Source of the DNA: Thauera carbonicopians
GTDB taxonomy: Bacteria > Pseudomonadota > Gammaproteobacteria > Burkholderiales > Rhodocyclaceae
Length of the DNA: 64,000 bases
Assembly (NCBI RefSeq): GCF_025699485.1
Contig: NZ_JANUXN010000002.1
Location: 372,001-436,000 of the forward strand
Reading direction: 5' to 3'
The notes under the pieces were generated by a model. It was not told the DNA's origin, did no database searches, and was given only the letters and a program-made list of their open reading frames with translations. Below, in pieces: positions 11,046-18,126 of the stretch. How positions within the stretch are numbered: position 1 is the stretch's first letter; each line of letters starts with the position of its first letter. Both the position numbers and the translations under genes were made by a program.

Positions 11046-11390
11046 TCAGGTCCGGGTGATGCTGCAGACGGCGTAATCGAGCACGCGCTGCAGCACGCCG
11101 AGGGTTTCCTGCAGCGCCTCGCCGACGGCGCCGACTGAGCCGCAGATCACCAAGGCACCGCTGAAGCGGTCGAGAAAGCCGATATGGACCGCCGCCGCCT
11201 TGGTGGCGATGTCGCCGGCGATGATCGCGGTCTCGCCCGGGGTCAGGGTCAGGATGCCGATCGCCTCGGCGCCGGAGACGCCGATCTTGTGCGCCAGTTC
11301 TTCGGTGGGATGCGCGATCAGGTGTGCCAGCGTGACCTGCTTGCCGGGCACGAACTCCTGGATGATGCGTTCTTTGTCGTCGAATTTCAT
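11046..11390 (-). CDS. eutS: Shell protein EutS (circularly permuted BMC-H)
   Basis: EutS is a permuted single-BMC-domain shell protein whose bent hexamer is thought to form shell edges. The 114-residue product has the family's features: [17 protein letters not shown] near the N-terminus, [17 protein letters not shown] in the middle and the C-terminal [14 protein letters not shown]. It is the first gene of the minus-strand operon. The candidate EutR-dependent promoter lies about 150 bp upstream. Confidence 0.95.
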
Positions 11391-11697
11391 GGCTTCCGTC
11401 GGCCTGCTCCGTTATCGCAGCGGGCGGCGCCCGGGTGAAGGGGGCCGCTCCAGGAACGTCAGCTGAACGCCTTGCGCTACATGGCTGGCGCGGTCCGGGC
11501 CTGCCGGCCGCTGCCGTGATGGCGAGGAGTTCGGTCTGATGGTAGCCCCGGGGTTTTTGGGGCCGCTAACAAAAATCGGCAAGTTTGACGGTGCTGTGCC
11601 CGTGCGCGGGGCACGGCTGCGCGCGCTCAGGCAGTTGCCGCAGAACGGGAGGTCGGGGGCATGGCGCGGAAGCTGCCCGAGGCGGGCGTGCCTGGCT
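11391..11697. other. eutR-eutS intergenic region
   Basis: This 307-bp gap separates two genes of the same strand. It contains the 49-bp element at 11538-11586. The stretch 11391-11537 would be the leader of the eutS mRNA; no clear riboswitch or B12-box was seen in it. Confidence 0.6.
11538..11586 (-). promoter_or_regulatory. Candidate EutR-dependent promoter of the eutSPQTDMNEJGHA operon (copy A)
   Basis: Read on the minus strand, this 49-bp element begins AAACTTGCCG, runs through GTTAGCGGCC and ends in a TACCAT hexamer that could be a -10 box. It matches the element upstream of eutB at 44 of 49 positions without gaps, with the first 27 bases identical. No good -35 box lies 17 bp upstream of the hexamer, as expected for an activator-dependent promoter. 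The hexamer is about 150 bp from the eutS start. EutR as the binding protein is inferred from position. Confidence 0.7.
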
Positions 11698-12783
11698 TCA
11701 GGCAAGCATGACGAGCGGGACTTTTTCCGCTCTGGAGCGGATGCTGGAAGGGTAGCGGAAGCAGACGTGCTCGCCGCCGCCGGCTTTCAGGGTGTCGGAC
11801 GGGTGTTCGGCGAACATCGCGAAATAGTCGGCGGCGAACTGGCTCATGTGCCAGAAGCCCCAGCGGGCGGCGACGTCCTGCACCGTCCTGAAGCCGGAGT
11901 CGCGGTCGCGCAGCGTGCGGCGCACCGCGTTCAGGCGCAGGGCCTTGAGGTAGTTCACCGGGCAGATGCCGAGTACCGCGCGGAAAGCGTTCTGCAGCGT
12001 ACGGCGGCTGACGTAGAGCGCTTCGCACAGGTCGGTCACCGAGATGACGCGGTCGGGTTGGGACAGCACGTATTCGCGCGCGCCGGAGACCAGTCGGCGG
12101 TAGCTGAGATTGCTGTGGCGCAGCTTGACCGGCGCGATGTGTTCGCCGAACAGCTCGAACAGGCCGGTCATCAGTTCCTCGGTCAGGGTGTCGCACACCG
12201 TGCGGGGCAGGCGCTTCAGGCCCAGGCCGGCGGCCTGCAGCAGCGTGCGCGACACGCGTTCCCAGAAGATCGCCTTCTGCCGTGCCGGCAGCGGAAACGA
12301 TTCGCCCCTGCGCAGCAGTTCGACCAGCTGGGGGCGCTCGGCGGCACGGGCGTGGCGTTCGAGCAGCGCTTCGTCGATGACGATGCCGAGGATCTGGTAG
12401 GCATCCGGCGTGAGCAGTTCGAAGTCCTTGCCGCCGGGGCGCACGGCGATGGTGTTGCGGCCGAGCGGCGAAGCGTTGATCAGGCCGTCGGCGCTGTCGC
12501 AGCGCGGCAGGCCGAACCAGAAGGCGCCGGGCCAGACGATGCAGGTCTGGCGCAGCGCGTGGCTGGTGGTTTCGAGGAAGAACTGCATCTGGCCGAGCCA
12601 GACCTCGGTGATCGAGCCGAAGAAGCGGCCGGCGCCGATCTGATCGTATTCCTGATACCAGGCGGTGATGTTGGCCGCCTGCTCGTCGGCATCGTGTACG
12701 TCCGATACCCGGATGCACCCCTTGGTGTCGCCCAGCGGCAGGATGATTCCCTGCTCCGTGGTCGTCATGATCTCGGCTTTCAT
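11698..12783 (-). CDS. eutR: AraC-family regulator EutR
   Basis: EutR activates eut operons in response to ethanolamine plus adenosylcobalamin. The 361-residue protein has a C-terminal AraC/XylS double helix-turn-helix, visible as VTDLCEALYVSRRTLQNAF (about residues 260-280) and the second helix pair near FRTVQDVAARWGF. The N-terminal two thirds match the EutR effector domain (AWYQEYDQIGAGRFFGS). The ATG at 12783 was chosen because GGAGAG lies a few bases upstream; an in-frame ATG at 12798 is possible. Unlike in enterics, where eutR is the last gene, it sits between the two divergent eut operons. Confidence 0.93.
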   Translation of the reverse strand: MKAEIMTTTEQGIILPLGDTKGCIRVSDVHDADEQAANITAWYQEYDQIGAGRFFGSITEVWLGQMQFFLETTSHALRQTCIVWPGAFWFGLPRCDSADGLINASPLGRNTIAVRPGGKDFELLTPDAYQILGIVIDEALLERHARAAERPQLVELLRRGESFPLPARQKAIFWERVSRTLLQAAGLGLKRLPRTVCDTLTEELMTGLFELFGEHIAPVKLRHSNLSYRRLVSGAREYVLSQPDRVISVTDLCEALYVSRRTLQNAFRAVLGICPVNYLKALRLNAVRRTLRDRDSGFRTVQDVAARWGFWHMSQFAADYFAMFAEHPSDTLKAGGGEHVCFRYPSSIRSRAEKVPLVMLA

Positions 12784-13119
12784 GGCTCTCCGCTGCATGG
12801 AAAAACTGAATTCCGGAGGAGGGGCCCCGGCGCTCCGCTTCGATCCCGCACCGCCTGCCGCCGAATGACCATGCAGCGGAAGGGGATGAGCGGACCTTAG
12901 CCCGTGCCGGTTCGGGGCGTCAATTGCGCCGCGTGAAACTTGCCGATTTTTGTTAGCGGCCCAAAAAACGCCGGGCGTAGCATCGCTGCGTGGAATGACG
13001 TGGCCCGACCTTGGGCCGCCGGCCGTCGGCTTCGGCCGTTCGGGATGCAGGTGCCGCCAGCGGCGGGTGCGTGGAGCGTGGCGGATCGTTTCCTCTTTGG
13101 CTTTGTGGATGGAGCGCAC
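12784..13119. other. eutR-eutB divergent intergenic region
   Basis: A 336-bp region between divergent genes. It carries copy B of the shared promoter element at 12936-12984. The part 12784-12935 should hold the eutR promoter; no consensus boxes stand out there. The stretch 12985-13119 is the eutB leader. Confidence 0.6.
12936..12984 (+). promoter_or_regulatory. Candidate EutR-dependent promoter of eutBCLK-pduST (copy B)
   Basis: On the plus strand the element begins AAACTTGCCG, runs through GTTAGCGGCC and ends in TAGCAT, a possible -10 box. It is the same 49-bp element as upstream of eutS, in the same orientation relative to transcription. The -10-like hexamer ends 136 bp before the eutB start, against 148 bp for the eutS copy. 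Confidence 0.7.
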
Positions 13120-14481
13120 ATGAAACTCAAGGCTCAGTTGTTCGGCCAGACCTACCAGTTCAAGGACGTCAAGGACGTGCTGGCCAAGGCGAACGATCTC
13201 CGCTCGGGCGACGTTCTGGCGGGCGTGGCGGCGCAGAGCACACGCGAGCGGGTGGCGGCGAAATACGTGCTGTCCGAGCTGACGCTGGCGGATCTGCGCA
13301 ACAACCCGGTGGTGCCCTACGAAGAGGACTGCGTCACCCGCATCATCCAGGACGACATCAATTCCGCGGCCTACGAGAAGGTGAAGAACTGGACCGTCGG
13401 CGAACTGCGCGAATGGATCCTCGACGACGATACCAGCAATGACGACATCGCCTTCATCCGCAAGGGACTGACGTCCGAGATGATCGCCGGCGTGGCCAAG
13501 ATCTGTTCCAACTCGGACCTGATCTACGGCGCGTCGAAGATGCCGGTGGTGAAGAAGGCCAATACCACGATCGGCCTGCCGGGCCGGATCTCGGCGCGGC
13601 TGCAGCCCAACGATACCCGCGACAACCTGGAAAGCATCCGCGCGCAGATCTTCGAAGGCCTGTCCTACGGCGCGGGCGACGCGGTGATCGGGGTCAATCC
13701 GGTGACCGACAACGTCGAGAACATCCACCGCATCCTCGACACCATCTACGAGATCGTCGACAAGTACCAGATTCCCACCCAGGGCTGCGTGCTGGCGCAC
13801 ATCACCACCCAGATCGCGGCGATCCGCCGCGGCGCGCCGGGCGGCCTGATCTTCCAGAGCATCTGCGGCAGCGAGAAGGGGCTGAAGGAGTTCGGCGTCG
13901 AGATCGCGATGCTCGACGAGGCGGCCGAGGTCGGCCGTACCCACAACCGCCTGGCCGGGCCGAACTGCCTGTATTTCGAAACCGGCCAGGGTTCGGCGCT
14001 GTCGGCCGGCGCGCACTACGGCGCCGACCAGGTGACGATGGAGGCGCGCAACTACGGCCTGGCGCGCCACTACGACCCGATGCTGGTCAATACCGTGGTC
14101 GGCTTCATCGGCCCGGAATACCTCTACAACGACCGCCAGATCATCCGCGCCGGTCTCGAGGACCACTTCATGGGCAAGCTGTCCGGCGTGTCGATGGGCT
14201 GCGACACCTGCTACACCAACCACGCCGAAGCGGACCAGAACTCCAACGAGAACCTGATGGTGCTGCTGGGCTCGGCCGGGGTGAACTTCATCATGGGCAT
14301 GCCGCTGGGCGACGACATCATGCTCAATTACCAGACCAGCGCCTTCCACGACACCGCCACGCTGCGCAAGGTGCTGAACCGCAGGCCGGCACCCGAGTTC
14401 GAGCAGTGGCTGGAAAAGATGGGGCTGATGGAAAACGGCCGCCTGACCCACAATGCGGGCGACGCGTCGTGGTTCTTCTGA
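13120..14481 (+). CDS. eutB: Ethanolamine ammonia-lyase large subunit EutB
   Basis: EutB with EutC forms the adenosylcobalamin-dependent lyase that splits ethanolamine into acetaldehyde and ammonia. The product has 453 residues, the same length as the E. coli subunit, and is co-linear in style throughout (for example [15 protein letters not shown] in the barrel and the C-terminal NAGDASWFF). The ATG at 13120 has GGAG 5 bp upstream and gives the standard [12 protein letters not shown] start. Confidence 0.97.
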
Positions 14482-16797: not shown

Positions 16798-18126
16798 ATG
16801 GAAACCCAGGAGATCGTCCGCAAGGTGTATGAGGCCGGCGTCGTCGGCGCCGGCGGCGCGGGCTTTCCGACCCACGTCAAGCTGGGCGCGGAGGCTGAGA
16901 TCGTGCTGGTCAATGGCGCCGAATGCGAGCCGCTGCTGAAGGTCGACCAGCAACTGGCGGTGCGCCATGCGAAGGAAATGGTGCGCGGCCTGGCGCTGGC
17001 GATGCAGGCGGTGGGCGCACGTGAAGGCATCGTTGCGCTGAAGGCCAAGTACGCCGAGGCGATCGACGCGATCACGCCGCTGCTGCACGAGAACATGCGC
17101 ATCCACATCCTGCAGGACGTGTATCCGGCCGGCGACGAGGTGATCACGATCTGGATGGCAACCGGCCGGCGCGTGCCGCCGGGCGACATTCCGCTGAGCA
17201 TCGGCGTGGTGGTCAACAATGTGAACACGCTGATCAACGTCGCCCGCGCGGTGGATGAAGGACTGCCCGTGACCCACCGCTGCCTGACGGTCACCGGCGC
17301 GGTCAATGAACCGGTGACCGTGACGGTGCCGATCGGCACGCCGCTGCGCGAGACGCTGGCGCTGGCCGGCGGGCTCAGCATTCCCGCGACCGACGCGGCC
17401 TTCATCGATGGCGGGCCGATGATGGGTGGCCTGCTCGAATCGCTCGACGTCCCGGTCACCCGGACCACCGGCGGCCTGATCGCGCTGCCTGCCGACCACC
17501 TGCTGATCCAGCGCCGGCGCGCCGACATGCGCAGCGTCATCAGCATGGCGCGCACGGTGTGCGAGCAATGCCTGCTGTGTACCGAACTCTGCCCGCGCCA
17601 TCTGATCGGCCACGAACTGCCGCCGCACCTGATCGTGCGTTCGGTGAACTACAACCACGTTGCCAAGCCGTCGGTGCTGCTGTCGGCGCTGACCTGCTCG
17701 GAGTGCGCGATCTGCGAAGCCTATGCCTGTCCGGTGGAGATCTCGCCGATGCGCCTGAACCAGGCGCTGAAGGCGCAGTTCCGCCAGGAAGGCGCGCGCT
17801 ACGAAGGCGAGCTGCGCAAGGCCGATCCGATGATCGAAGGGCGCCTGCTGCCGACGAGCCGGCTGGTGGCCCGCATCGGCCTGACGCGCTACAACCGCAA
17901 GGCGCCTTGGTCGGACGTCGTGCATGCGCCGGAACGGGTGTGGATTCGCCTGCGCCAGCACATCGGCGTCGCCGCCGAGCCCTGTATCCGCGTCGGCGAT
18001 GCCGTCCGCTGCGGACAGCGCATCGCCGACATCCCGGCCAAGGCGATGGGCGCACCGATCCACGCCAGCATCGACGGCGTGGTGGAAACGATCGGCGACG
18101 ACGCCATTGTCATCAGGAGGGCGTAA
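16798..18126 (+). CDS. pduS: PduS-like cobalamin reductase / RnfC-type electron carrier
   Basis: PduS is a flavin and Fe-S protein that reduces cobalamin for adenosyltransferase and binds the microcompartment shell. The 442-residue protein has the RnfC/Nqo1 nucleotide-binding loop GAGGAGFPTHVKLG near residue 19. It has two ferredoxin-type clusters, CEQCLLCTELCP near residue 255 and CSECAICEAYACP near residue 300, and a C-terminal barrel-sandwich hybrid domain. Enterobacterial eut operons lack this gene. Its position after eutK and before pduT suggests it supplies electrons across the shell to EutT-bound cobalamin; that role is inferred. Confidence 0.88.
   Translation: METQEIVRKVYEAGVVGAGGAGFPTHVKLGAEAEIVLVNGAECEPLLKVDQQLAVRHAKEMVRGLALAMQAVGAREGIVALKAKYAEAIDAITPLLHENMRIHILQDVYPAGDEVITIWMATGRRVPPGDIPLSIGVVVNNVNTLINVARAVDEGLPVTHRCLTVTGAVNEPVTVTVPIGTPLRETLALAGGLSIPATDAAFIDGGPMMGGLLESLDVPVTRTTGGLIALPADHLLIQRRRADMRSVISMARTVCEQCLLCTELCPRHLIGHELPPHLIVRSVNYNHVAKPSVLLSALTCSECAICEAYACPVEISPMRLNQALKAQFRQEGARYEGELRKADPMIEGRLLPTSRLVARIGLTRYNRKAPWSDVVHAPERVWIRLRQHIGVAAEPCIRVGDAVRCGQRIADIPAKAMGAPIHASIDGVVETIGDDAIVIRRA

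Follow-up and report, generated by a model that had tools for sequence, protein, structure and literature searches.

A shared candidate EutR box ahead of two divergent ethanolamine utilization operons in Thauera carbonicopians

The ethanolamine utilization (eut) locus of Thauera carbonicopians raises the question of what is encoded by a nearly duplicated stretch of DNA that appears once ahead of each of two divergent operons in the window (by which we mean the whole stretch of 64,000 nucleotides analyzed here). The leftward genes encode EutS, EutP, EutQ, and EutT, and the rightward ones EutB, EutC, EutL, EutK, and an RnfC-like protein, with eutR lying between both copies of the element: one copy sits between eutR and eutB and is aimed at eutB, and the other is found behind eutR and is aimed at eutS (Table 1). 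Among the encoded proteins, EutB, EutS, EutC, EutQ, and EutL reach their NCBIfam cut-offs, and EutR, EutP, and EutK of the window do not. As an answer, the two stretches ahead of the eut operons are most likely EutR landing sites together with their promoters, and we consider it highly probable that each copy serves as an EutR-dependent promoter, one regulator acting on both divergent eut operons.

Table 1. Coordinates of the genes and of the putative regulatory features discussed in the text.
Feature	Position in the window	Strand	Remarks
eutB, first gene of rightward operon	13120..14481	+	NCBIfam EutB, 681 bits
eutS, first gene of leftward operon	11046..11390	-	NCBIfam EutS, 182 bits
eutR, encoding the AraC-type activator that presumably binds the two boxes	11698..12783	-	NF007522, 304.4 bits; HTH_18, 68.6 bits
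Putative EutR box of eutB operon, AAACTTGCCGATTTTTGTTA	12936..12955 (16-bp core 12940-12955)	+	Invariant in 6/6 aligned eutB-side sites
Putative EutR box of eutS operon, AAACTTGCCGATTTTTGTTA	11567..11586 (16-bp core 11567-11582)	-	Invariant in 6/6 eutS-side sites; exact match
-10-like TAGCAT of eutB promoter	12978..12983	+	38 bases from 16-mer start
-10-like TACCAT of eutS promoter	11539..11544	-	Offset 38 from 16-mer start
Candidate eutR promoter without EutR box	12894..12923 (TTGACG 12918-12923; 18-bp spacer; TAAGGT 12894-12899)	-	

In a repeat search, the two copies emerged as the longest inverted pair (11538-11590 on the minus strand and 12932-12984 on the plus strand; 53 nt with an 89% match). 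A sequence-only reading of this DNA had described a 49-bp element that matches at 44 positions and whose first 27 bases are identical. In fact, the alignment of 11538-11586 with 12936-12984, counted by eye, has five differences (44/49 matches), and the 27-mer AAACTTGCCGATTTTTGTTAGCGGCCC is exact in both copies (11560-11586 on the minus strand and 12936-12962 on the plus strand), with no third copy in the window at three or fewer mismatches and none in 100 shuffles. The copies also lie, as had been claimed, in opposite orientation, one aiming at eutS-P-Q (-) and the other at eutB-C-L-K (+). Moreover, in a check of the whole genome (4,524,829 bases in 48 contigs), the 22-mer TTGCCGATTTTTGTTAGCGGCC was found at three or fewer mismatches only at these two places. 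Here, the pair could instead have arisen by recent duplication, or be some mobile or dispersed repeat, with no role in regulation, as the window copies agree in the spacer too (44/49), which is more than a box alone needs, but we regard this as very improbable: the genome has two copies only, Pseudothauera and T. linaloolentis carry the element at these same places and have only two genome matches each to the 16-letter pattern at one or no mismatch, and the spacers have diverged between species where the box has not. In its narrower form, that of a dispersed mobile repeat, the idea is refuted by there being only two copies of the 22-mer in the genome, and the sequence-only reading, which had named such a repeat of the core as a sign against itself, holds up in this respect, the core not being repeated elsewhere. 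When a looser 16-letter pattern was applied to the same genome at two or fewer mismatches, there were 14 matches versus one for a backward control, and only the two eut sites were without a mismatch, the other 12 all having two (two of the weaker matches lie on contig C3). This excess of 14 over one counts against the EutR-promoter reading.

To follow the element into related bacteria, named genomes were searched with EutR, which yielded 40 loci, and together with ten further loci, 50 were compared. The window EutR shares 98% identity with that of T. butanivorans, 81% with those of Pseudothauera nasutitermitis and T. linaloolentis, 57% and 60% with those of two MAGs labelled Accumulibacter, and 36-46% with those of Paraburkholderia, Chromobacterium, Marinomonas, and others, the remaining loci being more distant. 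Both an EutB and an EutR match are present in 34 loci (L065, L066, L067, and L071 among the ten, and L074-L078 and L080-L104 among the 40); L105-L113, L068-L070, L072, L073, and L079 fall outside this set, with no EutB match. In alignments of six genomes (which include the window and L074, near-identical to each other), all 12 sites (six on the eutB side and six on the eutS side) carry the 20-mer AAACTTGCCGATTTTTGTTA unchanged, and the surrounding DNA and spacers diverge between species while the box stays, with the -10 hexamer as the other conserved spot. The proposal that the conserved half upstream of the hexamer would be the EutR site is supported for a core of approximately 16-20 bp, A-N3-TTGCCGATTTTTGTTA, but not for the GCGGCCC that follows this core, which is not kept outside this clade, nor on the eutB side in L077 and L078, where GCGGCC is replaced by TCGCAT.

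A more general box, TTGCCRWWTTTYGWTA (run in the fetched loci with K at position 2 of the pattern), precedes the eut operon at a score of at least 14/16 in 33 of the 34 eutR-eutB loci, although such match counts are partly circular, the 16-letter pattern having been written after several sites had been seen. Scores are 14/16 in L095 and 15 or 16 in the other 32, and the one locus with no box is L071 (best, 12/16). For 28 of the 33, the box is inside the fetched locus, and for L066, L067, L081, L084, and L088 a whole-genome search places it further upstream, where four precede eutS and one lies 1.6 kb upstream of eutB (genome of L067). The box in L092 and L103 adjoins eutR, but is 3.1-3.2 kb upstream of eutB, and in L080, the only Paraburkholderia locus looked at in this regard, it is followed by an ORF for an ethanolamine permease (TIGR00908, 711 bits). 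In the divergent eutR-eutB regions (window, L074-L078, and L090-L104), the best box faces eutB in 21 of 21 (16/16 or 15/16 in 20, and 14/16 in one), with the best on the opposite strand being 10-13 of 16. Shuffling each of these regions 200 times produced scores of 15 or higher between zero and three times, and for the window, whose box scores 16/16, none of the 200 shuffles reached 15. As for the eutS side, four genomes with Chromobacterium-type eut loci have TTTCCGATTTTTGATA (three) or TTGCCAGTTTTTGATA (one) ahead of eutS, and the two positions occupied in Pseudothauera and T. linaloolentis are the sole matches in those genomes to the 16-letter pattern at one or no mismatch. A 19-mer searched at three or fewer mismatches in 150 family genomes had matches in 92, most of them evidently due to chance, with a backward control also hitting many; among the matches listed, the exact ones numbered three, namely both sites of the window and a further one in G052, which is presumably the genome of L078. 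Besides these, 16/16 boxes TTGCCGATTTTCGATA with TACGCT at 37 were seen beside EutR-like genes in L069 (9420, minus strand) and L070 (11351, plus strand), with no EutB match within the 19 kb fetched.

Whether the box keeps company with EutR was also followed in order-mates, where an EutB match occurs in 55 of 300 genomes. Thirty of the 55 were picked, 15 having an EutR-like match within 12 kb of eutB and 15 having none among the matches listed. A whole-genome scan revealed a box facing eutB within 12 kb, at one or no mismatch, in six of the 15 with an EutR-like gene (G397, G323, G206, G395, G424, and G336; EutR identity of 35-43%) versus none of the 15 without. The nine other EutR-bearing order-mates, whose regulators are 29-39% identical to the query, have no box at one or no mismatch near eutB and count against the EutR-promoter reading, though the shortness of several order-mate contigs means that some upstream DNA may be lacking. 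The 1.5 kb upstream of eutB was uninformative for most of the 30 order-mate loci, this stretch being taken as filled by upstream operon genes. In G244, which has no adjacent EutR, a 1-mismatch box is located on the opposite strand and 15.9 kb from eutB, more than the 12 kb allowed, and it lacks a -10 at 37/38.

The sequence-only reading also had each copy ending in a -10-like hexamer without a good -35 box, and this agrees with what we observed: TAGCAT (12978-12983, +) is followed by 136 nt up to the eutB ATG (13120) and TACCAT (11544-11539, -) by 148 nt up to the eutS ATG (11390, -), and at 17 bp upstream of TAGCAT the hexamer reads AGCGGC, matching, by eye, TTGACA at 0 of 6 positions. A consensus scan for sigma-70 promoters in 11391-13125 found none, with 0.1 expected. 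Among collected sites, which were gathered by box and nearness to eut genes with a box pattern that excludes the hexamer, an nAnnnT hexamer is placed at offset 37/38 from the 16-mer start in 41 of 41, and in 20 of 20 once sites at least 75% alike were removed, though this -10 test is not wholly blind, as a first look at Paraburkholderia used a 49-nt pattern including the hexamer and the hexamers had already been seen. The later box pattern without the hexamer finds the same Paraburkholderia sites. By comparison, the overlapping offset pairs 36/37 and 38/39 account for 8/20 and 13/20, and other adjacent pairs from 18 to 60 for 0 to 7 of 20. Seven further loci were read from the order-mate scan, one of which (L199) repeats L065; here, the new eut-side boxes of L201, L203, and L226 (+) have the hexamer at 38 (3/3), the boxes of L200 and L213, in genomes without an adjacent EutR, have no -10 at 37/38, and the box of L211, which is not near eutB, has a hexamer at 37. 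Taken as a promoter/operator for EutR, the element thus finds support in a box conserved in relatives, in its tracking of an EutR-like gene, and in the conserved position of the hexamer.

With the box ending 22 bases before the -10-like hexamer, its end falls at the -35 position, provided that this hexamer acts as the -10. AraC/XylS proteins engage in class II activation, as exemplified by AraC at araI2 and by MarA-type single sites, and the eut promoters resemble such cases in that the site abuts the -35 position, the -35 is weak or missing, and the distance to the -10 is near-rigid. A second half-site 16-39 bases upstream was not found in the 20 nonredundant sites (means of 5.05-6.55 of 16, with a single best of 12). 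In the mechanism we propose, EutR, an AraC/XylS-type activator, would bind one 16-20 bp box, A-N3-TTGCCGATTTTTGTTA, the 3' end of which abuts the position of the missing -35 element, and would thereby hold sigma-70 RNA polymerase on a weak -10 (TAGCAT or TACCAT) 38 bases from the 16-mer start, such that the two copies would let one EutR switch on both divergent eut operons, given ethanolamine and adenosylcobalamin. The box, the way it is oriented toward the structural operons, its occurrence in this genome at no other place than the two eut promoters, its conservation beside eutR, and its fixed distance from the hexamer are all read directly from the DNA. Were the conserved block instead to act in RNA, as a leader structure or riboswitch, this might suit the long predicted 5' leaders of about 130-140 nt after the hexamers, but such a role is extremely improbable, with the block lying upstream of the -10 and the leaders being poorly conserved. 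A scan with Rfam at the gathering threshold had a tRNA in 30001-64000 as its sole match, with none in 1-30000, and an RNA element was rejected.

As regards the protein, the window EutR has an AraC-type helix-turn-helix at its C-terminus (Pfam HTH_18, residues 252-333; 68.6 bits against a cut-off of 33.6), which places it among AraC/XylS proteins. The NF007522 EutR family is by far the best of six families for this protein, but the score of 304.4 bits is below the curated cut-off of 319 for this equivalog, which counts against the EutR-promoter reading. In the helix-turn-helix alignment, from which L097 (a one-residue protein) was left out, the window and E. coli EutR have 62 of 110 positions identical overall, and have in common the stretches VSRRTLQ and WGFWH, which we take to be the DNA-reading helices. 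The presumed EutR function of the window protein rests on its gene context together with this shared helix-turn-helix.

Since the same genome has two EutR paralogs, C3:51354 (37%) and C3:34070 (28%), the box might alternatively be the site of one of these, or of some other regulator co-occurring with eut, and not of EutR. Related boxes TGGCCGATTCTTGATA do adjoin the paralog C3:34070 as tandem pairs, and so related AraC proteins may read related DNA. Nonetheless, we find this alternative very unlikely, as the eut box starts with TTGCC and is single, whereas the paralog-side boxes start with TGGCC and are paired, and as the box adjoins the EutR gene itself in 21 of 21 divergent loci. The eut box is likewise unlike those tandem boxes in having no second half-site seen upstream. 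About the paralog itself, we noticed that this EutR-like AraC gene (G000:C3:34070-34993) adjoins the boxes in the arrangement TGGCCGATTCTTGATA-N17-TGGCCGTTTCACGATA, and that a similar tandem pair (N16) is situated 3.9 kb away, just behind an ORF for an ExaC-like acetaldehyde dehydrogenase (800 bits; cut-off of 900). These pairs, L117 1501-1549 and L118 1501-1548, are in the window genome but on a different contig. In each, the second box has a -10-like hexamer at 37 (TAAGAT and TATAGT), which is the same geometry as for the eut box.

Our preferred reading of EutR acting at both eut promoters can be set against enterobacterial systems. The paper that footprinted EutR is reportedly that of Luzader et al. 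from 2013, and the comparative-genomics paper on the EutR site is said to be that of Tsoy et al. from 2009, in which the EutR motif is reportedly shared with cobalamin operons in enterobacteria. In the 27-kb eut region of K-12, the best match to the 20-mer is upstream of eutS (GCGCTTGCCGAATTTTGTTA, 16/20), and the block there, CTTGCCGAATTTTGTTA, equals the window 16-mer at 15 of 16 bases, with the reported EutR site being known here by position only. This K-12 block has the nAnnnT hexamer CACGAT at offset 37. According to a review, the P1 promoter is bound in enterohemorrhagic E. coli by EutR, DNase I footprints having verified there a EutR sequence found by comparative genomics just upstream of the -35 of P1, and in Salmonella the operon ends with eutR, whose autoinduction comes from read-through (PMC5821096). 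Two other papers describe the eutS promoter of Salmonella as an established EutR target, enriched by EutR in ChIP (PMC4643982), and a putative EutR site in the promoter of a long, eutR-dependent eut locus of Klebsiella pneumoniae (PMC11101070). With the E. coli and Salmonella P1, the window has in common an AraC-type EutR, a eut operon, and a site just upstream of the -35 position, and with Klebsiella, as likened by description, a putative EutR site in a eutR-dependent eut promoter. By analogy with Salmonella and E. coli EutR, we infer that EutR would bind, activate, and respond to its ligands at both boxes. Yet E. coli and Salmonella have one eut promoter for the whole operon with eutR as its last gene, unlike the window, which has two EutR promoters for two divergent operons, and in which eutR lies outside both.

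In the window genome, no EutR box faces eutR, there being only two boxes genome-wide and a best eutR-facing score of 11/16. In contrast to the Salmonella type of autoinduction, eutR here has neither an EutR-activated promoter upstream nor a facing box. The candidate eutR promoter points away from the eutB promoter, and its form, TTGACG-N17/18-TAnGGT, is found in the window, L074 (near-identical to the window), L075, and L076, with TTGACG-N17-TAATCT in L078 and no TTGACG at this position in L077. For Thauera-type loci, we infer that eutR would be expressed from its own box-free promoter and hence would not be directly autoinduced. Separately, L226 (G424), G336:C172:18834-19026, and G395:C1:2641345-2641537 each have a pair of boxes in the eutR-eutB interval, of which one is directed at eutR and the other at eutB. 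In L226, the only one of the three that was read, the eutR-facing box TTGCCGATTTACGATA is without a -10 at 37/38 and so may act differently.

What was known already is that E. coli and Salmonella have an EutR switch ahead of their eut operon, with its site just upstream of the -35, and since the E. coli site has been footprinted there, the kind of finding is not new. New are these Thauera sites, the geometry between box and hexamer, and a eutR without a facing box. We lean slightly toward a wider proposition, in which a single EutR box at a rigid 37/38 bases from the -10 would hold in Beta- and Gammaproteobacteria, and, in place of the enterobacterial autoinduction loop, Thauera-type rewiring would have put eutR under a promoter that lacks the box and supplies the regulator for two divergent EutR promoters. 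If true, box and spacing would predict EutR regulons from sequence alone, such that these would become predictable in environmental bacteria. The present work gives a concrete candidate EutR recognition sequence with its promoter geometry outside the Enterobacteriaceae, and would offer a simple model of how a single AraC-type box can support activation. It also points to conservation of the operator between E. coli and Thauera, but not of the wiring of eutR.

In the open-access literature (subscription papers being outside the scope), there was no match for the box sequences or for a EutR box, motif, or regulon of this regulator, and nothing was found there on ethanolamine utilization with a microcompartment in Accumulibacter. 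The "EutR" of PMC5320631 appears to be another regulator that merely shares this name. A probe for EutS among 369 genomes sampled from the class matched one, the window genome, yet L064 and L132, outside the match list, have EutS as well. The microcompartment type of eut locus looks rare in the class, which horizontal transfer may explain. Lastly, the RnfC-like protein of the eutB operon (16798-18126, plus strand; TIGR01945, 262 bits) has matches beside eutL/eutK also in L066, L074-L076, L078, L081, L084, and L088.
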